A stretch of DNA of 64,000 nt from Scolanthus callimorphus (lineage: Eukaryota; Cnidaria; Anthozoa; Actiniaria; Edwardsiidae): NCBI GenBank assembly GCA_033964015.1, contig CM066918.1:248001-312000 (forward strand), in the 5' to 3' direction. Shown here in pieces: positions 6,001 to 50,750 of the stretch. The position numbers and the translations under genes were made by a program. A model generated the notes under the pieces. That model saw only the letters and a program-made list of their open reading frames with translations. It had not been told where the DNA came from and made no database searches. Within the stretch, counting starts at the first letter, position 1. Every line of letters begins with the position of its first letter.

Positions 6001-9000
6001 GGGGTGATCAACTTTGCTGGCTCTTATCGAACACTTTAATCTCCCCTCAGCAAGAAATTACAGAAGCAAGGGAAATGCAGATTTCCTTTTGTGGACTAAA
6101 GTTAGTAACTCTGTACAGGCCCATCACCAACGGGGAGCCTTTGCGCTCCGTTTTCTTTTGTTTTCAAATTGATCCATTGTTTTTCCGGTGCTCTCTGGTG
6201 ATGGGCCTTTAAGACCCGTGTAGCCAGAACGATCAAAACTAAAACTCAGATCGCGCAAGACCCGTGTAGTCAGACGATCAACCGAAAACCCAGACCGCCT
6301 CAGTGACTTACCTTATTGTATCTCTTGGATTTTCCGGTATACACGCTACTTGAGATTCCCAGATATGACTGATCCAGCTGAAAAATTTTAATTTAAAATG
6401 TCAAAGTCCATACTTAACTTAACCTGAGGATCAGGCCCTCCCTCGTTTCCCTTGAAAAATAAATACCGGAAAATCGCAGTAAAGGTTATTTTTTCTGCCT
6501 CATTTTCTCTTGGAAAAATTAAATTCCGCCTGATACCCAGGCTATAGTATTAAAGATGAGTTCGAGTTTTCTTTTTTGAGCCACTATAGACTCACTATAT
6601 AGTTAACGCATGAACAAGAACGAGTAGTTAATTCTTTAGAAGAAACCCACTTTGAATGCTTTTAGAAAGTATTATGGTGGCATTTCCGGTATCTTTCACG
6701 TAATGGATAGTGAGTAGGGGAACCAATCAGATTGCACTTGTGATAGTATGCGAGTGGGTTCCTACTAAGAGGAAGGTTAATTTCAGGAACACAACTACAA
6801 GTAGCTGACTTACATAGATGATATTATAAGAGCTGTTTTTGATGTCGACGTCCACATAAATAGAGAGCAGTGGCGAAATAGCCAGCTCTCTATGGGCTGT
6901 TATAAAGTTGCTCATAAAATCCCATTTGTTCTCGTCCCAGTTCTTGTCGATCACTGCCCATGAGCCGTATTTCTTGATTATCTGGGTCAGCGGTTCATCC
7001 CCCAGGCGTTCGATCTCGGTTTTGTTCATACATGAGTCGTAGAACTGGAATGCTTTGGTGACTGCTTCGTCCTATCGATAAGGGTGAGGAGTGGAAATTA
7101 ATATATCATAAGAATTAGCAAAGAACAGTAGTGACATATGCGCCACTTAGAAGGAATAACATAGACTACATAGACTAAAAGTAAAGTGTGCAGTGAAGTT
7201 GTAGGTCCGGTCGTCCCAATAACATGTTTGAGGTGTTGGTCACGTTTGCATTCATTCGTGGTCTCTTTCGCATCGAGCAATTGGACCAAAAGCCAACATT
7301 TACTAATTAGTAAGACACTATTCGGCCCTGAAATTCCTGGATCCGCCCCTGTGGTTGATATGTTTTTGACATGTGCACATGTCACATCAATACTATATTT
7401 ATAATATACAGGGCAAAATTACTCGATGCTGATTGGCTAAGAGCGAGGGCATTTTTTAGTAATTGAGGGCAAAATTACTTTGCACACGTCTGAATACAAG
7501 CAGTAACACACGCGCTGAATTTTGCCCTTTTATATCATAAACAAGTAAGCACATGGGTTCCTCGTAAAATTAGGGATTAATTTCACTTGTTTTTTCAATT
7601 TTTTTCAAATTGCCCTCGCCGCAGATGGCTCAGGCAATTTTGGCAATTTTGGAAAAAAATTGAAAACACTTGTGAAATTAATCCCTAATTTTACTCTACC
7701 CCATGCGATTACCTATACTAAGACAAATGACAAGATAACTTAGACCGTGCACAGTAGTACTTATCGGTAAATAAATAGTACATTGGCTTAATATTTCTAG
7801 ACTACTTATTTCTAGACTTTTTTCCACCACTGCCATGGACGGGGTTCTGCATCCCCATAAAAATTTATTGTCCATAGTTTCGCATTTTTAGAATTGAATT
7901 ACTGAGAACTAACTCAAAATGTTTTGTGAGAACATAAGCTTTGTGAACATTTTAGGACTGACCTTATGATATTGTTTTCGTATTTGAATTACTGAGAACT
8001 AACTCAAAATGTTTTGTGAGAACATAAGCTTTGTGAACATTTTAGGACTGACCTTATGATATTGTTTTCGTATTTCTTCACTGTTTATCAGCCTGTTGAT
8101 CAGTGCATTATTTTTCTTCGTCAGCTTGTAGAACTGGTCCCATTTGGGATTGGCATCTGGTCGAATATTGTTCTTGATCCAACCGCCACAGGCATATTGG
8201 TAAAAGTCCTCACATGGGTTGGCAGTGGGGTCAATAGAGGTCAGCAGCTCTACAAAGAACATGACCAAATAATATAGGTACTCTGGATGCATAGGTGGTG
8301 GACCTGGGGGGCAGGGGATGCTTGGCTTGAGAACCCCCAGCCTCGTACCCAGACGCTTCCCGGGTTTTAAGGGCATGCAAAGACTTGTGGGATAGTTTGA
8401 GCAGGGCGCGTAGGGAGTTGTGGGATAGTTTTAACAGGGCACGCAGAGAGTTATGGGATATGTGGAGAAAGAGACGGAAGTTAGGGTTAGGATATCCCAG
8501 AGTTCAGTGCGCACCGTGTGATACTCATTCCCAGTCCCTACACCTCCAAAACAATTTTCACTGAGATAAATCACCTCAAGAGACGGCGAAAAGATCACCT
8601 CAAGAGATGGTGAAAAATAACGTCTGGGTATGAGACTGGAGCACCCCCACTTTTTGAACTGGGGGGCTGAGCACCCCCACTTTTTGAAGCTAGATATATT
8701 TTTTGCTTATTACTTGTAAAGAAGAAAAGGAACAGAAGAACAGAAGCGTGTCCTTTTTTTTTCTGTTTTGACATTAGGCCCAGAGAACGTAAGGGTTAAG
8801 ATTACATTGTGACATATTTTCATCAAAATGTATATGAGGTAAAAACATGAAAAAACAAAATTACGTGTCCACATTTTTTGCCTCTTTGGCACCCCCATTT
8901 TTTAGGGTGCTCCACCGCCTCTGGGATGGGAAAGGATATAGAATACAGGGTGGGATTTTTTCACAACCGTAACAAAACTTGTGTAATTCAATGTCACTGG

Positions 9001-27791: not shown

Positions 27792-30700
27792 TTAGGTTCC
27801 TGAAAACGAAGTTAAGTTAAAGTAAAATTTCAGGCTGTAGCACTTACTGCAAAGACTGTCAGCTTAGTGAGTAGTCAGTAAAACCGAATCGAATGAATGC
27901 TATTTAGACCTGAATGTCGTTTGAATGAATAACAGACTGCTTGTATTGATTGGAAACACTAACATATCTTCAGTTAAAATATTTTTTATTAGAATTCAGG
28001 TCCAGCTCGTTTTTCGTAACCAAGCCACTCTTTGCAGGGGCGTAGCCAGCACTTATGAGAGGGGGGGTTCCAAAATTCAAAAAATAAAAAAACTCTATAT
28101 AAATCGGACGTTTTTTGCGTTCTCGCCACAGGAAACCCAGCCAAAATATTGATCTCGGGAAAAAACTAGCTTTTGAAGAAATTTGCTACATTTTATTGGA
28201 GCTTTTATTTGTTGTCTATTAAATATACCGAATTTTAGTAATAAGTCGGTCCAGAATAGAGGCGAGGGGGGGGGTTCCGCTGCGGGAGAGGGGGGTTCCG
28301 GAACCCCTGGAACCCCCCCCTGGCTACGCCCCTGCTTTGAGAGAAGACTTACCAATGATAAGCGAGTTCAAGGTGACGGGATCATATCCATTAGGGGTGT
28401 GTAGCTCTTTGATACAGATCTTCGCACCGCCCTTACTGATATACTGAGACGAAAATCGAACAAAACATGGGGTCAACTCACTTCTCAAATTATTGTTATA
28501 ACAGGAGATGCGAGAGGAGTGTTGTAATATCGTAACATTGCTGGGATGTGGGAACGACACATGTCATTTTCGTGAGCAAGAGGGGAATGCCACTGCGCAT
28601 GCGTGCGAGGCTGGACAACCAAACCACGCTATGCATGGATTTAGTATTTTTTGTATATCACGTGACAGTGAACCGGGACCACGTACCTCCACCCATGATG
28701 CAATGCTGTTGTACTCCGGTATAACACCTCCTACGGCTGTGCTGTGACGTGACGTCACTATCATGGTCGGGGGGGACGCGTACACTTTGCCGAATGAAAT
28801 GATCTGGATGACGAACAAAATAGGATTGGGAGTATCGAGTTACTTCCTACATGGCGTTCGCTGTAGTCATATCAATAAATCACTGGCTTTGCTAATTGTA
28901 CTTGGGAGGGCTGGGACGAGCCGCTTCTCTAATTCATGTATTTTTCACAATTTCACCGTTTTGCTTGCCAATTCTTATCAAAAATAGATCTTCTGTCTGT
29001 TCCTAGCAAGGGATTCCAAATATGCGTTTGGCCGTCTGGACATTTTTTTTATGTGTCACTAAAAACCTCATGGCAAAATGTAAAATTCATGATTTAGATC
29101 GTCTCGGGAAATCTTGAAGTTAATCTTATGGGAATTGTCATTTAAGCACCGTCTATGCGACAATATTCGTTACTGACAAACTTGTTTGGATGTTAAACAA
29201 AAAAGGTTAATTTATTCGGTATCGATCGCGGCATGTCCTGCACTATGGAATAAATAAGGTTCTGTATGATTGTGCATTTAATACCTTGCAGAAGGCGTTG
29301 TGGTTTTCCACGGGTGGAAGGACATTATTCGGGAAGCTGAGTGTCTGTCTCTCGGCGGTCATGGCGGATGGTAGGGTCTGGTAGGCCAACCAGTTCTGTA
29401 AAAAACAATTACAGCTTATTGATGCTTCAGTTCCAAGCCAGACTAATCCCTGTTGTATTGTTTTCAAAAGCTATTGGCAAATGCGGCTGAAAAATGGGCG
29501 TATCTTTACAAGTAATACCTCATTTTAAAGCTTATATCCTGGGCTAAACTATGGTATACAATTTCATTCAATTGTACAAAACACAAGTTTTTTTGATGGA
29601 GTTCCCTTTCCGGTGCATCAGTTCACCCGTTAGATTCACTTTGCGAATATTTGCTATTTTCGTTCATTGACCCCATATTAGCGTTGACTACGATTTGTTC
29701 TAAAAAAACCGTGTCGGAGATTTTGGAAATTCGATCTCCTGTTCAAGTTTGATTTTTTAAATAAAAAACAAACATTAAAATTATGGCATTAACGAAAATT
29801 ACCACGAAGGTAGTCTGTAACCTTAATATTCATGATGTTGTTACTTTATCGCATGTCTCGTTGAAGTAACGAAAATTATCGAATCACTCGTCTAAGACAC
29901 GTGCCAGGAACAAGTTCAAGCGAACCTTTTTCAAATTGTATCGTTTGTCCAACGTTACCAATAGACCTTTTTCCAAAATGGCCGCCGAAAATTCAAATGG
30001 ATTTTTGTTAAAAATGAATACCAGCACTAGAACACACATCATCATTTTAGTAAAACTACAAAATTTCGCTGCAGTATATCCAATATCTTCCGATAAAACG
30101 AAGTTAAAAATGTGAAAATTTACAGACGTTTGTATAACGGGGGTATGACGCATACCCCCAGTCATACAAATCCCTGTAAAAGTTTCAATTTTCAGACTCT
30201 GCTTTCTCAGCCAACATTGGCATTTGGCATAACGAAAATTTAAAGTATTACTAATGTGAGGATACTCTTTCTAGTGCTAGTATTTGATTGTCAGTCAGTT
30301 TAATTTTAAGACATGTGCGGCCATTTTGGAAAAGGTCTATTCAACAGCAAACCATAATGTCGTCTCTTACCACTTTGATGCTACTGTGCAGACCGTCGAA
30401 GTTCTGAAGCTCCCTCAAGCAGATGCGGAAGGAATTGGGAGTGACGTCTTCAACCCATGTGGTCGCTGCATCGTGTTTCTGACCGACGACACCGTGTATA
30501 GCGGATGTGACTATTTGTGGCGTGATGCTGAATTTTCCCTGTGCGAAAAAAAACAAGGATTGTACATTTTATCTGGGTGATCGATATACCATTAACACCA
30601 GGTCTTGCTTCAAGTTTGAAAGTGCGTATTCGAAAAAACCGAGTTCCCACAACAGCCGCAACCCTCAAATTTTGCGGCCGTTATGCGACTTGGATGTAGC

Positions 30701-33700
30701 AGAAATTTGGACAAGGGTAGCTACCAATTATACAATCCCCTAACCCAACTGTCGGGGGGGGGGGGGGGTGGAGCGACTACAAAGCCTTACCGAAGGTAGA
30801 GACTTGTTCACACACTTCGTTCCGTCCCACCAGTTTGAGAGTTGAACAACCCCTGCGGCGGCCCCCACAGGAGACCCCTGATAGGCGATGTAGTCAATAT
30901 AAGTCTTGCCAGAGTCAGGCGTGGCACGGTCTAATCTGCCGGCTTTAAGTGCACATGCCGTGAAGCAGGTTGTTGCGACGTTTTCAGTCCACACCACAGC
31001 CGCATCGTGTACGAAGGTGGAGTTAGGGTCGGAGTAATAGTAGTTGATACTCGTCTGCACGTGCACGTTATAGTGAGCAAGGAAGGTCGGGGCGGGCCAC
31101 GTGACCGGTTTGCATTGGACTTCTGTTGTGTCGAGTGTGAGGAGAACACGGCCACGGTGCATGATAAAGGCTGATGGACAATTAAACGAAAGTTGTTAAT
31201 CTTAAGATTTGAACCGGGGAGTGTCGAATTTGGGATCCTAGTACAGAAAACCTGATCAACGAAATTGAGAAAGTTCGACGAGTTTCTCCTCAGAAAAAGT
31301 TCCTCCCTTATGTCCATTCTACTCAGAAACACTTGCTTGTTATCTGTCTAAACTTTCTTCTTCAAAAAAATTGTTTTCGCGTGATCACAGAAGAACAGGA
31401 AACCATATTCAAGGAGAGAAACTCGTCTCAGACGAGTTTTCCGTCTCTAGTGTATATTTTATACAACTTACGGAAACAGGGTCCAGGATGTTTGATAGGG
31501 ATATCCGCCCTGGCGTTACAGACTGCCATTCTCCATTTGCAAGGGTTGAGGTAGGTCACGTTGTTAACACCACACAGCATGTCCTCAAGCTCCTCGTCGC
31601 ACACTTCTTCGCAAACGCATCGAGCGTCTTTTTCGGCGAAAGCTTTACAAATGGCGTAGAAATCACATGTGACTCCGATACAGGGATCAAGATCTGGGGA
31701 GAGAAAGGGAAATTGAAAGGAATTCACAAATTTGGAGTTATCAATACGAGCGTCAAACAGCGTTTGATAAGAGTTTTGCGACAAAAAAAAAATCCTCTAT
31801 TACCACCGTGCGGTTCACATTCTTCTTTAATCATTGCCGGAAACTATTAGTCGAGTCCTCACCATATAGTTCTTCCATTTCACATTTTCTATCACGGAAC
31901 AGTGCTAGTTTTTGTTCAAGATGTAATACCGAAACGAATGACGTTATTCCCTTTATTTCCATACTTACATCCAATAGCCAAGTATTCAATGTCCACAGGA
32001 TCATGATGCCCGTCGTAGGGTTGGATATCCTTCATGCACACATGGAAATTCGTCTTGTCGATAGTCTGCAAAAAAAAGGCGGGGTGAGTTCCTTGTAACA
32101 ATCGCCTTTCAGCCACGTGTGACCGTGTAATAGTTGCCATGGAAACAAGCACACAACTTCGATAACATCTCCCTCAAAATGGTACGAATTTTTTTAAAAC
32201 ATTTGGTTGAATTTCGAGCACCTCTAACGAGACGGGTACTCATCAGCTGTCCGCATTAGACTGGTTCTTACCACGATCCATTCCGTAATGGCGTTGTGAT
32301 CAGGTGAGATGGACTTGGCAGAGGTCGTGGAATGAAGGGCCGTGGTTATGAGGACGGGGGGAGAGTAGAAGTCGTCAGCAAAGTTGACAGTCTGCAGGGT
32401 GAAAAAAAAAAGATTAATGTGAAGAATCTTGTCTTGGGTGAGACGTGCTGGCCGTCATAAACGTCAAAAAGATTGTAAACATTCCAAAAGTAGATTTCAC
32501 ATACGTTGTCTAATAGACCTCCTCGGCTTGGGCGTACTGTTTTCCCATTTCAGATCACGTGGCATTCCCACGAGTATTCTCTCTTTTTCTGCTACGCACC
32601 TTGAATATGGAAGCGTTCCAAACAAAGAGGGAATGCCACGTGATCTGAAATGGGCTAAAGATTACGCCCAAGCCGAGGAGGTCTACTGCTAAGGAGAAGA
32701 GATAGGAGCTCAAGTATACATCTCAGAAGATTTGAATCGTACTTTGCATAGCAGGGGAGAGGTAGGGTGCTTCATTGTCTATCACCTTGCAGAATGTATA
32801 GTCGTTTGCATAGTAGGGAGGGGGAGGGAGGGTGCTTTATTGTCTATTAATAGAACGTATGTCTATTAATAGACAATAAAGCACCCTCCCCTCCCTACTA
32901 TGCAAACGACTACATATTCTGCAAGGTATTACCGTGGGGAGGGAGAGGGTGCTTCATTGTCTATTACCTTGCAGAATGTGTAGTCGTTTGCACGCGACAA
33001 AGTCTCCGTGTTTGGAAAAGTGACTGAAGCTCCTACGGGTACTGTCCATCCAGATGGGACGCCTTTTAGGGCCAGCCATTCCTATAGCAATACAAGAATA
33101 GTTAGGACCAAGTTTCTTTAAAAATCGTGTATTCTGTTTATGAGTACCACATGCGCTTATATCTCCCTATAAATCCTGAGAGAAGTTTTTCTTTCATGGT
33201 AATTTACTGATTTGTGTCTAAGCCAATAAAATCGCCTATATTTAATATAAAATAATTGCATTCCAGCATGCTTTGCCGTTGGCTTGGGAAGTTCAATGAC
33301 TGGTACTACCAAGTTTGTCAGGTGAGTGACCTGTGCTTACACGAACACTATACACATTCCTGACATTTGTAGACAATTTTTCATCTGTAATGCATGATGG
33401 AATTTCAATTTCATAAAAATTCTCGACGAACCAGACATATCCAGTCACCCGAATTGCCGGGAGAGGCGTGTAATTTTTTATTGTTTGCACCTATTCTCGC
33501 TAAAGCGTACGCTCTACTGCGAACGATATCATCAAAAGCTTATCGAGAGCGATTGCTCGGCGCGTGATGCTTCCTTATGAACTCACCACGTAAAGGTTTT
33601 CGTGTACCCCGTCAAAGTTCTTCAATTCTCGTAGACATATCTTAAAAGAGTACTGCGTAGCTCCCTCGGCCCAGACGGACGTCGCATCGTGGCTATTGTT

Positions 33701-36700
33701 GTAGCTGGCTGTGTGTACGGCCGTTGCAAACACGTACGGAGCTGTGCTGAAACTCTGAAACAGAAAAAATTACAGATCAAAAACAGCTATCACAAGGGTG
33801 GTCTCTTTGATGCCCCATAGTGTCCCTCATATTTACATATTCGTGAATTATGCCGTCACTAAAAAGAAGTTTTAAAGCTTATTAACCCCATCGAATAATT
33901 AACCGCCACTATTTTCTGATAATAGAGTAAGAGACCATGCTAGTTCTGTACTATTCTATCAGATCATTAATTATTCGTTTTATAGAAACGCGGACCATTT
34001 CACCCTGTGGCAAAAGTCGGACTGCAAAATACGAAACATGCTGGTAGTGAAGTAGCAATGCATAATGAGAGTTGGATGACTTATAAGAGATGGAAACTCT
34101 TGTGGATGAGTAATGAATGATCTCACAATTCCAGTGAAGTCCACGTCCACACATTCCGTGCCGGCGGTAAAGAGAGGTACAGGTACGCGTCCTGCGAGCC
34201 CGTTAACTGGGTTACCCGCGAAACCCATCCACTGAAGAGTGATGACTCGGCGACCAATCATCTCGCCCGCAGTCTCGACACACGCCGTGAAACCAGAGGT
34301 CGTTACAACCTGAAAAAAAAAAAGGGTCAGAAATGCAAATTACTATCTAAACCGAGTCCTTTTTGTAGTCTTGATGCCCTCCAAGCCCTTTGAGGCCGAG
34401 CTTTCGAGACTATCAGCCTCCTTTTTGTTGAGGGAAGTATCCATTTCCTTCGGCTGATTCGGATTGTATTTGTATGTTTTTTTTTATGAATTACAAGGTA
34501 AATCAAGTATTGCATTTTGATTGTAGATGGTTATTTGTACACTAAAGCCCCATTTACACGACGGAAATTTTTGGCACGGCTCGGATAAAAATGGTTCTTG
34601 GACTACCTCACCACGTAGTCCCGGCACGGATGAAATTTCGGTCCGGCTCTGTGAAAATTCAGTACGGCAAAGCCATTTACACAGCGCAAATATACCCGAG
34701 CCGTGCCATTAAATTTGGTACCCGTACTGCTTTTTATCGGAGCCGTGCCAAAAAATCCCTGTCGTGTAAATGGGGCTTAAGTCCTACTTACAAATTTTTG
34801 GCACGGCTCAGAAAAAAAAAATGGTTCTTGGACTACCTCGCCACTAGTCCAGATGAAATGGTTCGGCTCTGATAATAAAAATTTTAATACGGCAAAGCCA
34901 TTTACACAGCGCGAATATAGCCGTGCCGTTCCAATAAATTTGGTACCCGTACCACTTTTTATCCGAGCCGTGCCGAAAAAGAAAAGCAAATCCTGTCGTG
35001 CAAACGAGAGGAAACCCATACCTCTACCCATGCCACCGCAGCTTCTTTATAAAGTTTAACTTCCGTCGTGACTAGCGTGATTTGGACGTGGATTCCTGCG
35101 GTCTGTTCGGTGGATGTGAAGATGGGGTTGAACGCAAAAGACTTGCATTGGAACTCGGACGGGGCGTGTATTATGAACGCTCCCTTGCCAAACTGCATAC
35201 CTGCGGCTAAGGTTGAAAAAGAGGAACAAATGAACTAGTCTAATTCAAAAGCTCTAGTGCTCCGAATCTACCTTCTATCGGCCAAATCGTGTATCTATAA
35301 CAGGAAGGTATCCAAGTCTAAATAAAGTTCCACTAGATAACAAGGCCAGATATGAATGATTTATCAAGTCGGCGGTCGACTCCTGATCGTTGTTAAAATG
35401 GTCGCCAACTGAAGCAAAAAAAAAAATATCCATTGCGCGAGTATTTGCCCTATGTTGTTTTATTCAAATAGGGTTTTTGTACTTGGTCACGTGACCCTAC
35501 CAAATGATGCTCTGAAATGAAAAGAGCATATTGATTTTAGCGAACCTGAATTTCAGCAAGCTACTATGCTAACTCAAAGAGTGAGCTCAAAAATGTTTAT
35601 AGAATACACCGAATACAAATATGCAAGGGCGGATCTAGGGGGGGATTAGGGTGGCTAGCCACCCCCCTTGTTCTCATATTTCTTGTAAAAACCTTAAGAT
35701 TAGCCACCCCCTTGGTCTGAACCCTGTAGTATATCTTTGTACTAGAGCAGATTTCGTATGACTGTGAAAAGTACCGTGACAAAGTTGTTCCGCGCCGCGA
35801 CCGTGACCGTACCGCGACTACGCGATTTCATTGGCGATTTCATTCCATTATTTACAGCAGGCCAGGTTCCGTACCGCCACCGCGACAGTACCGCGCCGTA
35901 TCGCGGCACTTTTCACAGTCATACGAAATCTGCTCTAGCCACCCCCCTTAAGGGTCTGCATCCGCCACTGATATGGCGCCCAGTTTGAAAAGCTGGGTTT
36001 TCACGTGTTTTCACGTGATTTTGAGGTTAGTCAGTCCATAGTTAGTACCTTTGCTAACTATGGTCAGTCCAGAGCAATGGTTTTTCGACTGGGAGCCATT
36101 TTGAATTTTGTGTATGTGTATGGCTGGAGAGCAATTATACAAATTCCAGTTATACCAAGAGTTTTGTTTTTGCTTTCTTTTTTTCGGATACTCATAGTAC
36201 GTCGCTGAAACCCTGGCTTCGTACTAAAATCACTATTATTTTTTCTGTGCATCATTATTTGGGCAAAGCTGCTCATTTTATGGGTGACCGAAGTAGAGAT
36301 CTAAACGTTTGCCGCAGAGCGAGAAATCTAGTCCCATAGCAAATGTTTTGGTTGAAAAAAAATCTGCTCACTTGCACTACTATTATATGCAGTTAAGGTA
36401 GTTACTATATGAAATCATGCAACTTCGAGTTCAATTTTTGAACGAGAAAAGTCTTATGATTTCCTTTTAATAATACACATGTAACAATTCTAAGGAGTGA
36501 CATTCACAAATCTGCTTACAAACTGAACAGGCCGCACACATTTTTTCTTGATTGAAATCTGGACTAAAACCTGACAGAATTTAAACATTAACAAAAAACA
36601 AAGTTTCCATAATATAGCTCTATGTTACCAAAATATTTTGTAATCCTATTAGCATTTCAAAAGAATTTGCATTCTGTTAACCATTTCTGCACCTCGTGAC

Positions 36701-39275: not shown

Positions 39276-42200
39276 GTAAGAGAGTTAAGGTTACTGAGAA
39301 CCTTCGCGTACGTCCTCGGAAAAAAATCATACACCTCCTTAGTCTAACCAAAACATGTCAACCTATATATCACTGGAAAGCTTATAGAATGGACTAATTT
39401 ATTTTTTTAATTTTTTATTAATATATTTTTTTGAAGGTTTTATTTAAAATGTGGGTGTGACACTTTCAAGAGCTATCGCCGCCGAACTGCTTGACTTTGA
39501 CTCCCAAGTAACACATTGTTTTAAATCCTTTTAAGGTTTCTCAATCTCAAAAACCGTGTCTGCGTTTTTTAAAATTTTGCTTAGTTTAAAAGTTATGGAA
39601 GTTTTAAATTTCCAAGGTCAAATTTTATAGAATTTTCACGCTCTAAAAATTAAAAAAAAATCATAACTTTTGAACTAAACAAAAAAAAAAAAAAACGAAA
39701 AACGAAGACACGGATTTTGAGAAACACCTTTAAGGATTAAAGCAATGTGTTTCTTGGGAGTGAAGGTAAAGCAGTTCGGCGGCGATTGCTCTTGAACTTT
39801 TTTATAAAAGCTTTAAAAAAATTATATCTATTAAAAAATTACTTCTTTTTGCCATAGCCCGCTAGTCCATTCTATAAGCTTTCCAACGATATATAGGTTG
39901 ACATGTTTTGGTTAAACTAAAGACGAGCATGATTTTTTTTCCAAGGACGTGCGCGAAAGTTCTCAGTACTTAAGGAGACACTCGCAGGGTCGTGTCAAAC
40001 TAGTTTAGCAGGTGATTCAAACATCCTTCAACATTTGTTAAACACGCCATGACTAGCTAGTTCAATTTCCTAGTTTTAACCAAGCGAGTTCAACAAAAGT
40101 TGAAATGTGTTGAATCCCCCCCGGGGGGGGGGGGGGGACTCCCCATAAAAGTAGACTGGGGTACTCGTCGGGAAAATTGATTTTAACCCTAAGGGATAGC
40201 AAATAGTGTGTGGTCAACAGTGAATTTTACCCCTAAGAGACAGCAAATTGGTTGCGGAAAATGTCCCAGGGTTTTACGAGCAACGCTAATTGACGTATAA
40301 ACAGTAAGGCTGCGTACACACTTTCTGCCCAAGGTCCGGACCTTGTACTCGGGCACCAGTGCTGTGCAGGAATTTTGGCTTCGGCACTCGAAAAACTAGA
40401 GTGTTCACATTAGTACTCGGGCACCGTGCCTGGGCGCCAAGTGTGTACGCAGCCTAAGTTTCTGAGAGCGTCGGTTCGCATCAAAGTCTTGACGCACAAC
40501 GAAAAGAGAAACATGGGCGATTCTTCGCACCCAGTGATTAGATTACAATATTTTTTTTTCTGAGATCACATATGTCAACCATGGCCATGCTTGTTGATTT
40601 CAAGCAAATAGATGTTAATTATTTTTTGACAAGCGTGGCTTAGGTCCACACGTATCCGAATATCTTCGGAAACGGAGATTTTTCTCCGTATTTTAAAAAA
40701 TCCGCGTCCACACGGACCGTTTTTAAATCGTATCTGCCCTTCCACACGTATACGCGAAAACGATTCGATTTTTTTACACAAGACTTCAGCTATCGGGTAT
40801 GCGCCATTCTTGAGCCCAGAGCTCTCCGGCTCGTCTGCTGGCAGGGGAGGCTCTGGGAATAACCATTTGAGGGCCTTAGCTGATTGGGTGATTTTGAGCG
40901 TTGGGGCATATACGCAAAGATGTTTCTCTAACCGGCTCTGTATCAAATCTCGCGCATGCGTCAGTGGTTGTCACCAGAGCCTCCCCATTCTCTTACCCAA
41001 CGGCTTGCCTACTCGCGGGGGAGGCTCTGTTGACAGCCACTGACGCATGCGCGAGATATGGTACAGAGCCGCCGAGAGAAAGATTTTTCTGCGCATGCAC
41101 CAACGCTCAAAATCAGCCAATCAGATACCTCTGGGTACGAGAATGCCTCTGGGCATGCGCGGGATGCAAGCGCATGCAGCCTTCGAAATGCAAGTGCACT
41201 GGACCCTTACTTTGACGTCGTCGTATTTGAAAACCTCCGTTTTCGGCCGTCCACACGAATACGATACAGTCTGGAGAGCGTTTTCGAAAATCTTCGTTTT
41301 ATTGTCAGAAAACGCAAGAAAAAAGAAAAAAATATCCGTTGACGAAAATATTCGGATACGTGTGGACGGGGTAGGTCTGCATTACCAGGCTTTATAATAA
41401 TTTAATCCCTGTACCGGTTTCTACCTACAGCCCGTACAGCGGATATCAGGCCCAAAATGTCCCGGGGTTTTCGTAGTTGATTCTCGGCTCACAATTAATT
41501 GCATTTCTTACCATTTATGATATCCTAATGTACCAAATTTGGTATTTAATGGATTAAAGATTATTATTATTATTATATTTATTATAATAAATTAAGCCCT
41601 CTTCTGGTTTCTATCTGCAGCCCGTACAGCGGATATCACCCCCAAAATGGCCAGGGGTTTTCGTAGTTGATTCTCTCGGCTCACAAGCTAATATATATAT
41701 TATAATAAATTAAGCCCTCTTCTGGTTTCTATCTGCAGCCCCTCCAGTGGAGATCACCCCCAAAATGTCCCGGGGTTTTGGTAGTTGATTCTCAGCTCAC
41801 AAGCTAATATATTTATTATAATACTGGTTTCTATCTGCAGCCCCTCCAGTGGATATCTCCCCCAAAATGTCCCGGGGTTTTGGTAGTTGATTCTCGGCTC
41901 ACAAGCTAATATATTTATTATAATACTGGTTTCTATCTGCAGCCCCTCCTGTGGAGATCGCTCATGGTCGTCTCCCCGTCACGATCCTGGACGTTCAGAC
42001 CTACGCATGTGCCACCCACGTGTTTGCCACGCCCTTTTCTAGTGACAGCCTCGCCGTCCATCTCAGCCCTGCGCGCGTGGCGAACACACCGCCTTTGTAC
42101 GACACTTCGACTGTGTGGATTGATCACGTGTCTAAAACTGAATTCACCGCGTGCGTAGATCCATCGGCTTTGGTACCCATGTTACGGGTAAGTGATTACC

Positions 42201-45200
42201 ATGGCAACGAGACTAACATGGTATAAAGGAATCGGAAGCGCTACGATAATCAAGTCGTCTAAATATTTTTAACGTCCAAAGTTTCGAGTGTTCGGGCGCT
42301 TTGCTCTAACTTGACCATGCATTTGCCATTCCAAAGATTTTGCACATTTTGGAAGCGCAGGCCTAGTAGATATTCAAGCAGTCCCTATTTGCCTAATGTA
42401 CTGAAATGTACTGTAATGCTTGTTTAGGCCCTTGAGGTTCACTGGCTGGCGTACCTGTACAAGCCAACTACTGGTGTGTCCGGTGTGGTGTCCGTCCCAG
42501 TCTGGACGTCCGGTACCAAGTGTGTTGTCATCACTTATCCAACGGTAAGTGTGTCACGTGACGCAAACCGTGTACTTGACATTTGTAGCAGAACTACCAA
42601 GGCATCTTGCTTCTGTAGATCAATGGCGTATTAAGTACTGCTTTTTTTCCTCAGAAACAAACATACTTGTATCAGTACCTTGGCGAGACTGCTATTAATA
42701 TACCAACGAACTTTCGGAAAATCGTACTTCATGAGGCATTTTTTAGTAAAAGCTGGCAACAAGTGCCATCTTATGCAAAATTTTACGCTCAATCCGAATT
42801 TTTTTGTTGCCGACGCCGATTTTCCATTTTAAGAGGTGAAATGATGTCATGATTGACAGCTGTCACACAAACCTCTACAATGAATTTTTCGCCGATTTTT
42901 CTTTTCAAATTTTAACGGCCAGTAAAATTCAAATGGATAAGTGGCAATGCGGTATTCAAAAAATGTATCTATATTATGGGATAGGTGATTGATGGGCGTA
43001 GAACTTCATCCAAAATGGCGGATCCAAGATGGCCGCCGTGCCGCCATTTTGGATATCTGGCGATTTTTTGAGGCCATCACGTTCAAAGACTATACTTTAA
43101 AAAAATGAAAGACAAAAACTTAAACGATTTTGCAATACATAAAAAATAGCAACAGACGATTATGGCGGAAAGACAATACTATATAGGCAAATATATGATT
43201 GTCGTTAAGTGAATTTAGGTAGGAAGCGCAATCCACAAAGTTAGTCCTTCCTACTTTAAAAAATTCTTATTTTGACTATTGATTTCAAAGCCTATCACTG
43301 AGTCAAATACATCTACGACTATTGTTTTAAATGCATGCAGAATATTCCTCTAACACGCTCAGGAATAATAATAATAACAAAAAAGCAAGGATAAAGGGGA
43401 AAATTCTCTATGACAATTTAGAGGCGTTGCTCCAGCCTTTTCCGTATCTTTTTTATAGCCTGGTGGTGGCAGCTTTGAACTTATAAGCAAAAGTGCCGAA
43501 TGTAAGACTTTAATTCGACCTCGGAGTAGCTTTTCTCTCTATGCCTGAAAGCCTTCTCCTATTCCAACCCTTTTCTTGTCTGAGGTTTCCTTTTGTGGTT
43601 TCCTGCTGGTCCTGAGGTTTCCGCGATTTTTCGATTATGCCACGGGGGCAGCAGATTGCATGATCGTTGTGACTCAACTCTTTATATAAGGACTTCAAAG
43701 CACAGTTTTGTGGCCGGGACCAAGGATGATCATCGAAAAATGGGGATATCGTTTAGATCGAAAAATCAAGCGGCGGTGAATCTGATTCACCTTTTTTATA
43801 TGATTTGCCTTTTATATATTAAATATGGCTTCATTCGACCAGCAGCACTGCAGTTCATACTGTGATACCTTGAATTCATTGTCAGCTGTTTATTTCCATG
43901 CCTTTTTTGACTACCAGACTGATAGTTTTTTAAAAATCAAATTTGACGATATGACGGCCATCTTGGATCCGCCATTTTGATTATCACAGCAGCGCCATAT
44001 CCGAATAATACGACACTTTCTCGTATAGAACATTCTAAACTATCCTGTTCAAGTTAAATATTCGTTCGAATTTGAAAAATAGCGACAAAAATATTTTAAG
44101 GGGTTCGCGAACAGCTGTCAATCATGATGACGTCGTTTTCACCCATTAAAACGCAAAATCAGAGATGGCAACAAGAAAATTCGGATTCAGCGTGAAAAAT
44201 TACATAAGAAAACTCTTGTTGCCAGCTTTTACTAAAAAATGCCTCATGCGCCTTAAACATTGCAATTTTCTGATATTTCGTCTAGTCTATACGGTGTTTA
44301 CATCTTGTTGCCACCCAATTCAGATCATGTGATTATTCCTCTGGGTGGTTACAATTGTCAAATTTTCCTCACTAGATCGCGTGCACGAGTGTATGTGCAG
44401 AACTAACAAAAGTATCCACCAAAAGGAATCATCACATGATCTGAATTGGGTAGCAACAAGATATAAACACCGTTAGCCGATTTGGTCTATGGAAAAAAAT
44501 TGTTGTTGCTTTATTGTTGCTGGAGTAGCTTTGATGTCGTCATTGTTGTTGTTGTTGTTGTTGTTAAAGGCCCATCACCAACCGGGAGCCTTTGCGCCCC
44601 GTTTTCTTTTGTTTTCAAATTGATCCATTATTTTTCGGGTGCACTGATTGGCTAAGAGTCCGCAAAGGCTTTCTGTTGGTGATGGGCCTGGGCAGGTGTC
44701 ATTATGGAGTTGGTCTTCCCTACTCTGCGACAAACAAATAATTTAATTGCGCAACTTTTGCTGACAACTTTCTTTTTTTTGTTGTGTTGCCATAGAGACT
44801 ATCCGTGGTGCCTAGTGTTTAGCAACAGCAATGCACGGCAAACGCCTTAAACGCCACGATTCTACGGCCGTCTGGACAGAGGACATCACCTCTGAGGATT
44901 TTAAACTGTGTCTGCGCGAGATTAAAAACTTTGATGGTGAACACAAAGACATAAAAGTGGTACGTATGATATCCCTATTGCATTATTCTCGTGCATTTTG
45001 TCCTTAAAGAACCGCACTAAATATTGGATAGCTGGTGTGAAATCTAATGGTCGCCAGACAAGTCTCAATCCACCATTCCAGCTGTTCGCACACTAACCGG
45101 CATGTAGCGCGCGCCTAATGTGGCTGTCAAATGGGATAAGGGCCGGGGGGGGGGGGGGGGGGGGACCATTGATTTTGTTTGCTACTTTTTCGTTCTCATA

Positions 45201-48200
45201 TCATGTGATGTACAACTGATTTCAGAACTGGTTGGTGCTCAGCGATCTTCCCCCGGAATGGGTTAAAGCCAAACACACAGGGATGCTGAACTTTCCCAAC
45301 ACCCTCCCACCGCTGGAAATCTTTAGATATAGTTATTGTCAGGTAAGTAATCATTTAACGACGTAATAAGTAATTTTAACTCAAGTTGCTAGCATTAAAT
45401 AAGATTGCCATAGGTAAGGGGGAGGGGGGTTAAGAGGGATGGATGATAAGAATGCAGAATTCATGGATCCAGAAACAAGTGAAGTTACTGCTACCAACTC
45501 TCGTACACCAGTAACTTGCTATTCACTCGCGCATACATTTTCATACTCACGTCACTTTAGAACCCCTGCGCAAGCAAACCATTTAGTGCAGACTACACAG
45601 AGAAGATTTTTAAAGATTTAATTATTGAATTAAGACACACTTTGATCTCATGAACCGATAGGGTTATCCGGTATAATTTTTGAAACTGGCATGGCTTTTA
45701 TACACTTGCTGGTTGTTGATGCCAGAGAGACAAACTTTATTTATACACGACAAAACTCTCAGAGCATGCGTGTCACACACGACTTTTGTTCTTGCAGGAG
45801 TTCACATTTCCTAAGATGTTTTTCACCGTGCCGACTATGATCGCAACACCAAGCCACAGGAACAACCTCTATAGTTCACGAAACATCTGGCCCGAGACTA
45901 ACTCCATTACATATTGGATAGAGGTAACTAACACTATTACATACTGGATAGAGGTAACTAACGCTATTACATACTGGATAGAGGTAACTAACACTATTAC
46001 ATATTGGATAGAGGTAACTAACGCTATTACATACTGGATAGAGGTAACTAACGCTATTACATACTGGATAGAGGTAACTAACGCTATGACATACTGGATA
46101 GAGGTAACTAACGCTATTACATACAGGATAGAGGTAAATAACGCTATTATATTACATACTGGATAGAGGTAACTAACGCTATTATACATAGTGGATAGAG
46201 GTAACTAACGCTATTGCATACTGGATAGAGGTAACTAACGCTATTACATACTGGATAGAGGTAACTAACGCTATTACATACTGGAAAGAGGTAACTAACG
46301 CTATTACATACTGGATAGAGTTATGGTGTGATTCGCTCGAAATACAACGTGCGTCCATCGACCTTTGTGACTGATAGCAAGTGTCAATGACTTGTTTTAC
46401 CCACTATATGGTATTCAGACCCTAATATGATCTAATGTGGTGATCCCTACAGAGCATTACTAACCAGCAGTACACGATTTGTGTGAAAGATCTTCAACCT
46501 TATCGAGTTCACCACGATCCCATACTAGTCAGTTTTCTAGTGCTTGGAGGTAAGCAACCTGCCTGATAGACCATAAAAATGCTCAGAAAACTGTAAGCTT
46601 TCTTCAACTTCCCTGTTATCACCATATCCACTCACCTTGAAAAATAAAAAGGAATTGTCAGGGAATTTTGTAATCGATCGGCAAAATTTGTAAAAACTGG
46701 CCAAAGGTCAAGTTATTTCATTGATCCACAAAAAAGGGTTAGCCTGTCATTGACAACCAATATATACACGCGCAAGCACTGATTTCATGTTCTTCTCTGC
46801 TATTGTTGTTCTAATCATGCGGGACCGCAGCGGCATAGAAATAAGACTAAATACCAATCTAAAAAATAACTTGGACTTTTAAAACGCCTTATCAAGAGTA
46901 TATATCAGAGGAACGCCCCTATTTCTGAGTCCCATGTGTAGTATCATCATAATTATTATCGTTCTAGACCTCCATCCGTGTCTGACGGTGACGTGCGGGA
47001 ACTACGCCTCGTGCGCGGCCTACTCATCCAGTGACGTGCGCTGCGAGTGTCCGAAATCATGTCCGTACTACGAGGAACAGTACTGTGGTAGTAACGGAGT
47101 CACCTACACCAACAGGTGCTCGTATAACCAGATGGTGTGTACCACAGGGAACCAGTTTGCAATCAGCCCAGGCAGCTGTGAGGGTACGTTAGATGTCTGT
47201 GTCTGTCTGTCTGTCTCTTCGTCAGTATGTCTGTGTCTGTCTGCCTCTTTGTCAGTCTCTGTCTGTCTGTCTGTCTGTCTGTCTCTTCGTCAGTCTTTCT
47301 GTGTCCGTCTGCCTCTTTATCAGTCTGTTTGTGTCTGTCTGCTTGTTTGTGTCTGTCTGCCAGTCTATTTGTGTCTGCCAGTCTATTGTGTCTGTCTGCC
47401 AGTCTATTTGTGTCTGCCAGTCTATTTGTGTCTATCAGTCTATTTGTGTCTGTATGTATGCCTGTCAGTCTGTTTGTGTCTGTCTGTCAGTCTGTTTGTG
47501 TCTGTCTGCCAGTCTGTTTGTGTCTGTCTGCCAGTCTGTTTGTGTCTGTCTGCCAGTCTATTTGTGTCTATCAGTCTATTTGTGTCTGTATGCCTGTCAG
47601 TCTGTTTGTGTCTGTCTACTTGCTTGTGTCTATCAGTCTTTTGTGTATGTCTGCCAGTCTATTTGTGTCTGCCAGACTATTGTCTATCAGTCTATTTGTG
47701 TCTGTATGTATGCCTGTCAGTCTGTTTGTGTCTGTCTAATTGTTTGTGTCTGTCTGTCTGTCTGTGTGTGTCTGTCTGTCAGCCTGTATGCCTGTCTGTG
47801 TGTTTGTCTATGTGTCTGTCAGTCTGTTTGTTCCGTGTCAGTCTGTTTGTGTCTGTCTGTCTGTTTGGGTCTGTTTGTTTGTGTCTGTCTGTGTGTGTCT
47901 GTCTGTCAGCCTGTATGCCTGTCTGTGTGTTTCTGTGTCTGTCAGTCTGTTTGTTCCGTGTCAGTCTGTTTGTGTCTGTCTGTCTGTTGGGTCTGTTTGT
48001 TTGTGTCTGTCTGTGTGTGTCTGTCTGTGTGTGTCTGTCTGTCAGCCTGTATGCCTGTCTGTGTGTTTGTCTGTGTCTGTCAGTCTGTTTGTTCCGTGTC
48101 AGTCTGTTTGTGTCTGTCTGTCTGTTTGGGTCTGTTTGTTTGTGTCTGTCTGTGTGTGTCTGTCTGTCAGCCTGTATGCCTGTCTGTGTGTTTGTCTGTG

Positions 48201-50750
48201 TCTGTCAGTCTGTTTGTTCCGTGTCAGTCTGTTTGTGTTTGTCTGTCTGTTTAGGTCTGTTTGTTTGTTTGTTTCTGTCTGTCTGTCTATCTGTTTGTTT
48301 ACTTGTGTCTGTCTGTCTAAAAATATTGGTACTATTAAACAAGTGCAAATGCATTACATTACATCTTGAACCATTGTTCATTTACCATTGCAGCATTTGT
48401 ACTAAAAAAGAGGACGTGTAGCGCTCATGCTCGACAGGGAATACCGCTGTCAGACGATCGCATTTGGTTACGACTTCTCCCTACCAAACTCCACACTTCA
48501 TGTCTTGGTGTCTGTTGACTATTTTAAACACCACTCAGACGGTACCACATGACAGCGCCGTGGCCTGGACCGAGAATATAACGCCATTAGCATTTGACGC
48601 ATGCGTACTGAAGGCAGGCCGCAATGATATGATGCCGCTTGATGGCGGGCTCACATATATTAACTTCGTGGCGTACCAAGGTGCTCCCGCCGAAAGTGTG
48701 TCAGCTGTGGTTTTCTTGGATATGTGGTGGGATGGAACCCAGTGTAAGAGTGCAACATTCCTTCGGTGAGCTTATTACCTACACACACGCAACTTTGCGC
48801 GGTTTATATTTTATTATTCGCTAATTATTTTAATCGTTAGTAACCCAAACACTCGTAGGCGCCTTATTTGATGCGTGATCCTCTGCGCGTCCAATATCGC
48901 GCCCGCGGTTGTGAATTTCGGGACTTTTAACATAACCACAGCCACTTACGCCTGCTTCAAGGCTAAAACCTTAGTTTATTTTCGTATTCAATAACATCGT
49001 CGGGTTCCGCTTTTATCTACAGAACAAATTCAACACGCCGCCTTATGTGATATTGACAGCTCACCACCAACTGCCTGGGATGAGACGAGATGCGCTCGCC
49101 CTGTGGTAGAGGATCTGACTTCGTCCTCATTTAGAATGTGCGCCCGCGAGTTACAGACGTTTGATTGCATGCATTTAGGCGTCGATGTGGTAAGAAAGGT
49201 TTCTATATTAGAATGCTTTTCTCTGTTCGTGACCCGTGTATAGGAGATCTCCGTGTAACATATTTTATTCAGAGGACCTCAACGCGCTGAAGGTGCAGCA
49301 GCAGAGCCTGATAAAAGCAAGCGCAAAGGGCGGGAGACGGGGAACGCGACCTTTAATGGACTTGAATGACGACTGCATGCGTTTTTTTTTTTTTTTCGTA
49401 ATCCTGACTGGCTCTCGCAAGAATACACCTCAAACTATGTTATTTGTGTTGCATTGTTTAGTTACCAGTTTGTGTTATTGTTTGGCAGCACTGGTTAGCA
49501 TTTGAAGTCCTGCCGGAAAACATGCATGCTGAACGTCACATGGTCACCTTACTAAACATGGACTTACCTCCGTCATTACAAATGGCCAACGCCTTTTGTG
49601 AGGTATGTTTGTAAGTCTGATAGACTTAGCACCGTCATTACAAATGACAACGCCTTTTGCGAGGTATGTTTGTAAGTCTGATGGACTTACCACCGTCATT
49701 ACAAATGACCAACACCTTTTGTCAGGTATGTCTGGCCACCTTACTAAACACCTTAAAACCTTCATGACAAATGGCTAACGCCTTGCCGGACTCATTGTCG
49801 ATTTTTGTGCGCTTTTTTCATTATAGACGGTGATATTTAACAGGAACTATACATCTACACCCACAATCCTACTCTCGCCTATTCATCAAATGGCACCGGG
49901 AGGGCTGGAACCAGAGTTCAACACTATCACGGCGTGGGTGGAGGTAACATTGACTGGGTTTTCCTGGCGGGTTTTCGTCGCGACGGAAAGCCAGTTGATT
50001 GCACTAGGCTAAACAGGGCACGAACCTGATTGGCTTAGGCGGTTTGACTGACGGACAGAAAAATTCCAAGTCCCAAAGCAAATGCGCCGCGCAAAACAAC
50101 GCCTACGATTCACTTTGGTTTGCCTCAAAAGCGAAAAACCGTGCTTTTATAGCAATTCTGTTAGTGTTCTATCTGGCGCTGCACTCCTGTAGAAGCAGAA
50201 AGCTTGATTGGCTGCATTGTGGTTATTCCTCTTAAGGAAATGGGCTTTTCCCACACTTTAGAATCCATAAAAGAAGATTTCTGTGGCGATTAGTACTGCA
50301 CAACCAAACAATGTTATATTTGTTCCCTCGATAGAATTCAAACCGGAAGAGTTGCCGCGTGTGCCTGCGGGAATCCCGCGGACTGAGTGGAACACGTGAC
50401 CCAGTGAAAGTGTCTGTTGTAGTTATAGGTAAGTTGGAGAGTAAGAATTAACGACTCCTACCGTTCTAATAGAGTCGCGTGTAGCTAGCTAGAGCTAGAT
50501 GTTGCCGTTTCTTGGAATGCATGCTCACTGCTCGAAGTTTTAATTGTTGTTCGAATGCCTTTCTTCCCTAAACCCAATTTTTAGAACTATCAAATTTGTA
50601 CAACCATTCCTGTAAATGAACATTTTAGTTGGAGGAAAAGTAAGAATAGGGCACTGAGATCTTATCCTACTGGGCTTTTCGTTTAGGCGAAAGGACATGC
50701 AGGTCACAGCCAAGTCAACATGTGCCTCTTGTCGCTTCTCAACAGGTTGA
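39215..50750 (+). CDS. Paralogous H-type lectin / Kazal gene, head-to-head copy with frame breaks
   Basis: Same [A-B-C]-Kazal-[A-B-C] plan as the minus-strand gene. Exons: 39215-39275 (signal), 41943-42187, 42428-42544, 44796-44959, 45226-45342, 45798-45923, 46453-46549, 46968-47183 (Kazal), 48394-48775, 49023-49189, 49489-49602, 49827-49943, 50335-50428, and a tentative stop exon at 50746-50750. Lectin exons keep HDSTAVWTEDIT, LCLREIKNFDGEH and similar motifs. Unlike the minus copy, exons at 44.8, 48.4 and 49.0 kb each need 1-nt shifts to stay in frame, all at short homopolymers. It is either a young pseudogene or a real gene with consensus indels; the lack of substitution stops favours recent loss or sequence error. 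The product would be secreted. Confidence 0.78.
39296..39973. mobile_element. Large palindromic element in intron 1 of the plus-strand lectin gene
   Basis: GAGAACCTTCGCGTACGTCC...GGAAAGCTTATAGAATGGAC is inverted at 39,868-39,970 as GTCCATTCTATAAGCTTTCC...GAAAGTTCTCAG. The inner arms (CGCCGAACTGCTTGACTTT with its complement) are also paired, so most of the 680 bp folds back. No ORF. Confidence 0.85.
40315..40457. mobile_element. Foldback element, TAAGGCTGCGTACACACTT ends
   Basis: The right end AAGTGTGTACGCAGCCTAA is the inverse of the left. The interior holds CGGGCACCAGTGC and CGGGCACCGTGCC. Confidence 0.88.
40644..41367. mobile_element. Foldback element, GTCCACACGTATCCGAATAT ends, split by another MITE
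   Basis: Left GTCCACACGTATCCGAATAT and right ATATTCGGATACGTGTGGAC are perfect inverses. The middle (about 40,800-41,160) is occupied by a copy of the GAGCTCTGGGTACGAG family, giving a nesting order of insertion. Confidence 0.88.
41416..41942. repeat. Tandem copies of a lectin-exon splice acceptor
   Basis: Four copies (starting about 41,416, 41,603, 41,722 and 41,824; spacing 187, 119, 102 and 102 bp) of TGGTTTCTATCTGCAG plus CCCCTCCAGTGGAGATC precede the genuine exon start at 41,943. Each has the polypyrimidine tract, CAG and the first ~17 exon bases, then diverges into CCCCCAAAATGTCCCGGGG. Confidence 0.9.
42725..44255. mobile_element. 1.5-kb element with long imperfect terminal inverted repeats
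   Basis: Left GAGGCATTTTTTAGTAAAAG...AAATTTTACGCTCAATCCGA and right TCGGATTCAGCGTGAAAAAT...CTTTTACTAAAAAATGCCTC are inverted arms of about 200 bp. Inner GGCGGATCCAAGATGGCC pairs with GGCCATCTTGGATCCGCC. No transposase frame is seen. It lies in the intron between lectin exons ending 42,544 and starting 44,796. Confidence 0.82.
44291..44473. mobile_element. Foldback element, ACGGTGTTTACATCTTGTTG ends
   Basis: The right end CAACAAGATATAAACACCGT mirrors the left. Arms contain CCAATTCAGATCATGTGATT and its inverse, close to the element at 32,514-32,685. Confidence 0.85.
44568..44689. mobile_element. Small MITE, AGGCCCATCACCA family, copy 2
   Basis: Ends AGGCCCATCACCAACCGGGA and GTTGGTGATGGGCCT. 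A fuller version of 6118-6208, with the right arm CTGATTGGCTAAGAGTCCGC that copy 1 lacks. Confidence 0.88.
44796..44959 (+). CDS. Lectin unit B1 first half, with a frame break
   Basis: The exon starts AGACTATCCGTG (RLSVVPSV) after acceptor GCCATAG, but the conserved rest (LATAMHGKR..., VWTEDITSEDFKLCLREI) lies in another frame. One base appears missing in GTGTTTAGC at about 44,818. A second possible acceptor (GTGCCTAG at 44,815) enters the good frame directly in phase 0 and would drop the first strand of the domain. Confidence 0.75.
45798..45923 (+). CDS. Lectin unit C1 first half, donor repeated as a minisatellite
   Basis: Encodes FTVPTMIATPSHRNN and ends SITYWIE|GTAACT, the expected H-type lectin split point (phase 0), matching the 120-nt exon of the paralogue. 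The final 18 coding bases and the donor start a 30-bp tandem array. Confidence 0.88.
45904..46320 (+). repeat. 30-bp minisatellite repeating an exon end plus splice donor, about 14 units
   Basis: Unit ATTACATACTGGATAGAG|GTAACTAACGCT. Every unit except the last keeps GAG|GTAAC(T) or GAG|GTAAAT; the last reads GAGTTATGG. The first eight units stay in the lectin reading frame, each encoding TNAITYWIEV, before an extra ATTAT breaks the frame at about 46,145. Confidence 0.95.
46968..47183 (+). CDS. Follistatin/Kazal exon of the plus-strand lectin gene
   Basis: Encodes DLHPCLTVTCGNYASCAAYS, RCECPKSCPYYEEQYC and CGSNGVTYTNRCSYNQMVC. Same phase-1 in/out module as 31,472-31,693. Acceptor GTTCTAG, donor GAGG|GTACGT. 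Intact. Confidence 0.92.
47190..48315. repeat. CTGT-rich microsatellite/minisatellite, 1.1 kb
   Basis: Degenerate TGTC/TGTT tetranucleotides, with a higher-order unit of about 115-130 bp ending CCTGTCTGTGTGTTTG and CTGTTTGTTCCGTGTCAGTC. It begins within 10 bp of the Kazal exon donor. A 495-codon open frame through it encodes only Cys/Leu/Ser/Val repeats and is not a gene. Confidence 0.95.
48394..48775 (+). CDS. Lectin unit A2, whole unit with two or three frame breaks
   Basis: Frame changes are needed near the A6 run (48,404-48,409), near TTTTAAA (about 48,532-48,538) and probably at the donor, where the phase does not match the next exon. Conserved pieces read ALMLDREYRCQT, then DSAVAWTENITPLAFDACVL and NFVAYQGAPAES...WWDGTQC. 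Length 382 versus 380 in the intact paralogue. Confidence 0.75.
49023..49189 (+). CDS. Lectin unit B2 first half, one base short
   Basis: KFNTPPYVILTAHHQLP...ALALW is followed by an in-frame TAG. Adding one G at TGTGGTAGAG (about 49,104) would restore VEDLTSSSFRMCARELQTF. The exon is 167 nt against 168 in the paralogue, confirming a single-base deletion or error. Confidence 0.8.
49561..49745. repeat. 61-bp tandem copies of a lectin-exon end plus donor, 3 copies and a remnant
   Basis: Copies begin at 49,561, 49,623 and 49,684. Each repeats GACTTACCTCCGTCATTACA...GCCTTTTGTGAG and the donor GTATGTTTG. A degraded fourth piece lies near 49,760. The first copy is the real end of exon 49489-49602. 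Confidence 0.9.

Follow-up and report, generated by a model that had tools for sequence, protein, structure and literature searches.

A probable mirage-type minisatellite with thirteen near-identical 5' splice sites in a putative lectin gene of a sea anemone

The minisatellites called mirages were reportedly first described by Canestro in 2002. In amphioxus they are tandem duplications of the 5' or 3' boundaries of exons together with their splice signals, and Adh3, the globins BflGb6 and BflGb9, troponin C and PGBD5 are named as genes that carry them (PMC3087553, PMC3902484). These arrays are alike inside and have a diverged copy at their border, their length is unstable and splicing is reportedly undisturbed by their presence (PMC3087553, PMC3902484). 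Internal tandem repeats at exon-intron boundaries were also described by De Grassi and Ciccarelli (2009) for human genes of segmental duplications (PMC2812944). Other studies, by Rogers, Zhuo, Gao and Lynch, concerned the gain of introns by tandem duplication, as cited in PMC3087553. Finally, a C-type lectin family of prawns is reported to present variable coding repeats of 30/33 bp (PMC7536079).

The array described here lies on the plus strand of the window, by which we mean the whole 64-kb stretch of sea anemone DNA that was analysed, and extends over 45897-46320, where Tandem Repeats Finder gives a period of 30, 13.9 copies and a score of 701, against a best score of 62 in 20 dinucleotide-shuffled windows. 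A preliminary description had placed its start at 45904, which is too far downstream, and had recognized in it an exon end that is repeated about 13 times together with its GT donor. This second observation stands: an exon end of 27 bp is present 14 times in the array, the copies being linked by 13 GTA triplets, with 13 GT joints. The GAG|GT joints run from 45924 to 46291 and read GTAACT in 12 cases and GTAAAT in one (donor 8). The motif GAG|GTAACT, formerly attributed to each joint, is therefore present at 12 of them, and a fourteenth joint (46321..46326, +), which adjoins unique intron sequence, reads GAG|TTATGG and is without GT. The 9-mer GAGGTAACT has 12 plus-strand copies in the 64-kb window, every one of them within the array, and none on the minus strand. 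The division of the unit into 18 exon and 12 intron bases, proposed at first, leaves out nine exon bases at the start; 27 exon bases followed by GTA describe the unit best. On the left, the array borders on ACTAAC within the exon; on the right, GAG is followed by three bases of which two still agree with GTA. In the simplest reading, the segment originally duplicated would comprise the 27 exon bases and GTA, and the joint on the intron side would have lost its GT afterwards; the loss of an original donor, of which GAG|TTATGG would be the remnant, is suggested by this matching of the borders. The donors are spaced by exactly 30 only through donor 8, the next two units having 35 and 32 bp. Growth by a process resembling slippage, also suggested in the preliminary description, was judged plausible.

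Like the amphioxus mirages, the anemone array spans an exon-intron boundary, covering the terminal 27 bases of exon 5 (the end of which was set by homology) and the start of the intron, and its units carry a splice signal, with GAG|GT at 13 of the 14 joints. Its units are also alike inside: 11 of them have exactly 30 bp and show a mean pairwise identity of 95.9%. Its first exon copy, of 27 bases, is the most diverged copy of the array, identical to these units at 23-25 of 27 positions, as reported for the border copies of the mirages (PMC3087553); with one array this is a weak test of the likeness. The array differs from the amphioxus mirages in its cnidarian host, its 14 copies, a unit that is divisible by three and leaves the frame open, and an intron-side joint without GT. 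The human boundary repeats, for which 27 intron modifications were reported, are likewise minisatellites that lie at gene boundaries, with a mean unit of 30 bp; unlike the anemone array, these repeats were found via young paralogs, have RNA support and comprise about four units on average (PMC2812944). As in the gain of introns by tandem duplication, the duplicated anemone segment carries AG|GT. That mechanism was rejected for the present case, because the position of the intron is common to the paralog on the other strand, the spacing in the homologs is identical and no new intron position has arisen. The prawn C-type lectins resemble the anemone case in being lectin genes with short in-frame units, but they belong to another lectin family and their repeats lie inside a coding exon, whereas the anemone repeats follow the first donor (PMC7536079). 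Searches of a library of open-licence articles listed no cnidarian case of a boundary minisatellite or of duplicated donors. In our opinion, 45897-46320 is most likely a 'mirage'-type minisatellite, that is, a tolerated by-product of repeat growth of which the outermost donor is used, and not a device for lengthening the protein.

The gene that carries the array was modelled by homology as 12 exons on the plus strand (41943..50428), coding for H-type lectin units and a Kazal domain. Its exon 5 (45798..45923, +), delimited by tblastn with Actinostola P0001, Exaiptasia P0002 and Nematostella P0007, is of phase 0 at both ends, follows the acceptor TTCTTGCAG| and ends with ...TNSITYWIE| at the donor GAG|GTAACT. 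Exon 6 (46453..46549, +; SITNQQYTICVKDLQPYRVHHDPILVSFLVLG), also placed by homology, codes for the second half of the lectin unit that is split with exon 5. The Kazal_2 profile matches the gene with 23.2 bits for a cut-off of 22.8, and the H_lectin profile (PF09458) is matched by nine of 11 homologs with E up to 0.01, Nematostella P0007 being without match; the pieces from the window itself stay below the cut-off, with 12.6 of 24 bits. In the protein collection, the best match of a 531-aa query is from Nematostella and covers 50% of the query with 60% identity. When PDB sequences were searched with a profile, Kazal/follistatin-type relatives were listed and no H-type lectin appeared among the 43 entries, and the model of the Nematostella homolog had no Foldseek match at E up to 0.001, lectin matches coming in a second look. 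Judged by its sequence relatives in Nematostella, Actinostola and Exaiptasia, the gene with the donor array is an H-type lectin/Kazal gene. Elsewhere in the same gene, a 1.1-kb array of TGTC type (47200-48318, +), with several frames open, fills the intron that follows the Kazal exon. In the intron at 42700-44300, inspection by eye revealed similar sequence near both ends (~42750 and ~44210) in opposite orientation, as for an inserted element.

Donor 1, GTAACT at 45924..45929, is followed on the plus strand by donors 2-8 (45954, 45984, 46014, 46044, 46074, 46104 and 46134; 45954..46139) and by donors 9-13 (46169, 46201, 46231, 46261 and 46291; 46169..46296). Splicing from any of donors 1-8 to exon 6 would keep the frame and leave it open, giving at most seven extra decapeptides VTN(A/T)(I/M)TY(W/R)IE, while each of donors 9-13, which come after the onset of the 35- and 32-base units, is preceded by a stop that is met after ...ILHTG. 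The earlier statement that the first eight units extend the lectin frame is thus correct for donors 1-8. The frame is open because 27 of the 30 bases of a unit are already coding in the same frame and only one codon is added; the unit length by itself accounts for the open frame, which is therefore no evidence of selection. Most units of the array read NAITYWIE, as in the Actinostola and Nematostella homologs, against NSITYWIE in the first copy. Mild as well as strong changes (A/T, I to M and W to R) occur among the seven in-frame units that would be added. When the changes were counted in the 11 units of 30 bp, excluding the 35-bp and 32-bp units and the first copy, none was found at the 99 sites of the donor 9-mer and seven at the 231 sites elsewhere, a difference that points toward constraint on the donors though it is not significant (p = 0.11). 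An explanation through exceptional donor strength was not supported, the pairing of GAG|GTAACT with the 5' end of U1 (-6.6 kcal/mol) being in the middle of the range for the 24 donors of both genes (-11.6 to -4.4).

The homologs point to the donor that is probably used. Fifteen were fetched, of which P0002 ends near the junction and P0010 is without the segment; in all of the 13 that cover it, the spacing is that given by donor 1, with nine residues from W-x-x to the next cysteine and no added decapeptide, which, coming from other species, demonstrates a conserved joint and not the usage in this animal. The motif W-(I/V/M)-E does not occur twice ten residues apart in any of the 15 homologs fetched. 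On the minus strand, the window contains a paralog with 12 matching exons (28353..35200), our comparison gene, in which the corresponding exons end at the same place as those of the plus-strand gene. From these comparisons we infer that donor 1 (45924), which yields the single-copy spacing of the homologs, is the splice donor used. In the predicted model of the Nematostella homolog, the junction is at 278|279, with a strand at 273-280 and the next one at 284-291, and an insert would fall where a strand ends, just before a hairpin turn, within a single predicted beta-sandwich unit. The idea that additional units would lengthen a linker between the two halves of the lectin unit does not agree with this model, which places the insert inside the predicted beta-sandwich and not in a free linker between lectin units.

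Exon edges are duplicated elsewhere in the window. A second donor array, where exon 10 of the plus-strand lectin gene ends (49561..49731, +), has a 61-bp unit present 2.8 times, with GTATGT donors at 49603, 49664 and 49726, and reading on from its first donor gives VCL and a stop. An acceptor array (41574..41959, +) with a unit of about 102-118 bp presents tctatctgcag and the exon start four times (units of 118, 102 and 102 bp), with acceptors before 41621, 41739, 41841 and 41943, the last being that of exon 1; the three upstream acceptors all meet stops. On the minus strand, the donor of an M13-peptidase exon is duplicated (7894..8075, -) in two identical 90-bp copies with donors at 8052 and 7962; the M13 homology stops just ahead of the duplicated donor and the open frame reaches a stop in the intron part. 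The donor edge of exon 4 of the paralog (32754..32992, -) recurs 182 bp downstream and an inverted copy lies in the interval, so that direct and inverted copies form a fold-back structure within 240 bp; here too a stop is met on reading on. Among these five exon-edge duplications, a lower bound for the window since the exons of other genes may hold more, the frame is open in the 45897-46320 array only; as the four others meet stops, edge duplication is not tied here to a coding gain. That both donors and an acceptor are affected and that reading on leads to stops supports the interpretation of the main array as a tolerated by-product. The window also contains minisatellites at 20816-21537, 23915-24086 and 25317-25554, among them palindromic GATGACGTCATC units and TATTACAAATGTGGCA-type units that have opposite orientations at two places.

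The frequency of local copies was also determined with a 32-base probe, the probes overlapping so that the positions are not independent and the simple array at 47180-48330 of the plus gene being masked: copies were present at 17/132 edge, 261/1816 intron and 8/526 exon-interior positions in the plus gene, and at 5/135, 82/1535 and 0/526, respectively, in the minus gene. Unmasked, a local copy was found at 19.6% of the sampled positions of the plus gene and 4.1% of those of the minus gene. At the level of the junctions, three of 24 edges had a copy in the plus gene and one of 24 in the minus gene. No enrichment of arrays at exon edges was detected, random placement of the three arrays of the plus gene in 41500-50500 having put all of them on an edge in 15% of 20,000 trials. 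Edges behave like introns and exon interiors are protected, which fits neutral tolerance, because a duplication at an edge leaves the outermost copy in place.

The preliminary description had left the choice between a source of isoform diversity and neutral noise with use of the first donor; homolog spacing, stops elsewhere and a frame that is automatically open agree better with the latter and less with the former. If isoforms were produced, the spliceosome would pick among donors 1-8 and add 0 to 7 strand-like decapeptides to one lectin unit, over a range tuned by the copy number. These donors are indeed 30 apart and open, but their openness is a consequence of the unit length and, beyond divisibility by three, gives no support. 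The likeness of the donor 9-mers, all the same save donor 8 (GTAAAT) and free of changes at the 99 sites counted, speaks for such a function, and the domain might accommodate an insert as an extended loop. Prawn C-type lectin repeats are reported to raise activity with the repeat number (PMC7536079). However, the insert is present in 0/13 junction-covering homologs, the four other edge duplications of the window give stops, and the added peptide would, according to the model, repeat a core strand inside the domain, so that we regard an adjustable isoform range as unlikely. A Pfam search with isoforms containing 0, 1 and 2 extra units matched H_lectin for none of the three and gives no indication either way. 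A bolder version, which we also hold to be improbable, would make the array work in the living animal: the intron-side joint being without GT, splicing would rely on the minisatellite copies and use several of them, the array length would set the isoforms (0-7 extra strand-like decapeptides) of each individual or tissue, and somatic instability would add diversity.

The array might also belong to a pseudogene, in which splice sites would be free to drift or duplicate and no isoform would matter; if the plus-strand gene were dead, the array would have no protein meaning. Four frame changes affect this gene, one in exon 3 (44796-44959), two in exon 8 (48394-48765) and one in exon 9 (49023-49189), without counterpart in the minus-strand paralog, where the homologous frame is open in 12/12 exons, and the plus gene has three tandem edge arrays, where the paralog has a single fold-back copy and no such array. 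Yet the homologous frame is open in nine of the 12 plus exons, exons 4-7 match Nematostella at about 61-74%, and the intact paralog and the M13 exon show edge duplication as well. Some of the frame changes, moreover, coincide with short single-base runs or adjoin them and could be due to errors of the assembly; the gene may have undergone decay, or its sequence may contain errors or a misassembly, and decay as the origin of the array seems to us improbable. The Nematostella homolog P0007 ends with ...HGRVAVMLDR, a short way into the part encoded by exon 8, where the window gene changes frame. Tandem repeats are frequently misassembled, and with possible sequence errors nearby the number of units could have been inflated in this manner. 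This is very unlikely: of the 13 units that follow the first copy, eight depart from the consensus, two of them through different insertions, which duplicated reads would not do, and independent arrays with other unit lengths are present nearby.

For the tolerated mirage-type minisatellite that we favour, the history would have started with a short tandem duplication across the boundary, with 27 bases from the end of exon 5 and three from the start of the intron, followed by growth to 14 copies, probably via slippage or unequal exchange. Such growth at an edge would keep the leftmost copy on the true exon and turn the remaining copies into intron, and with splicing at the exon-proximal donor 45924 the mature mRNA would stay as it was. 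The loss of GT at the intron-side joint would be tolerable because identical donors lie upstream, and edge duplications would persist since the outermost copy continues to yield a correct mRNA; the array would then be neutral. With its 13 near-identical natural donors, it would offer a clean test of position-only choice among equal 5' splice sites. Mirages were reported from amphioxus, with related cases in human, and the anemone array is most likely the same type in another animal group. As four tandem arrays at exon edges and one fold-back copy occur within a single 64-kb sea anemone stretch, such duplications may be a general side effect of the growth of minisatellites, restricted chiefly by the need to keep the outermost splice site functional.
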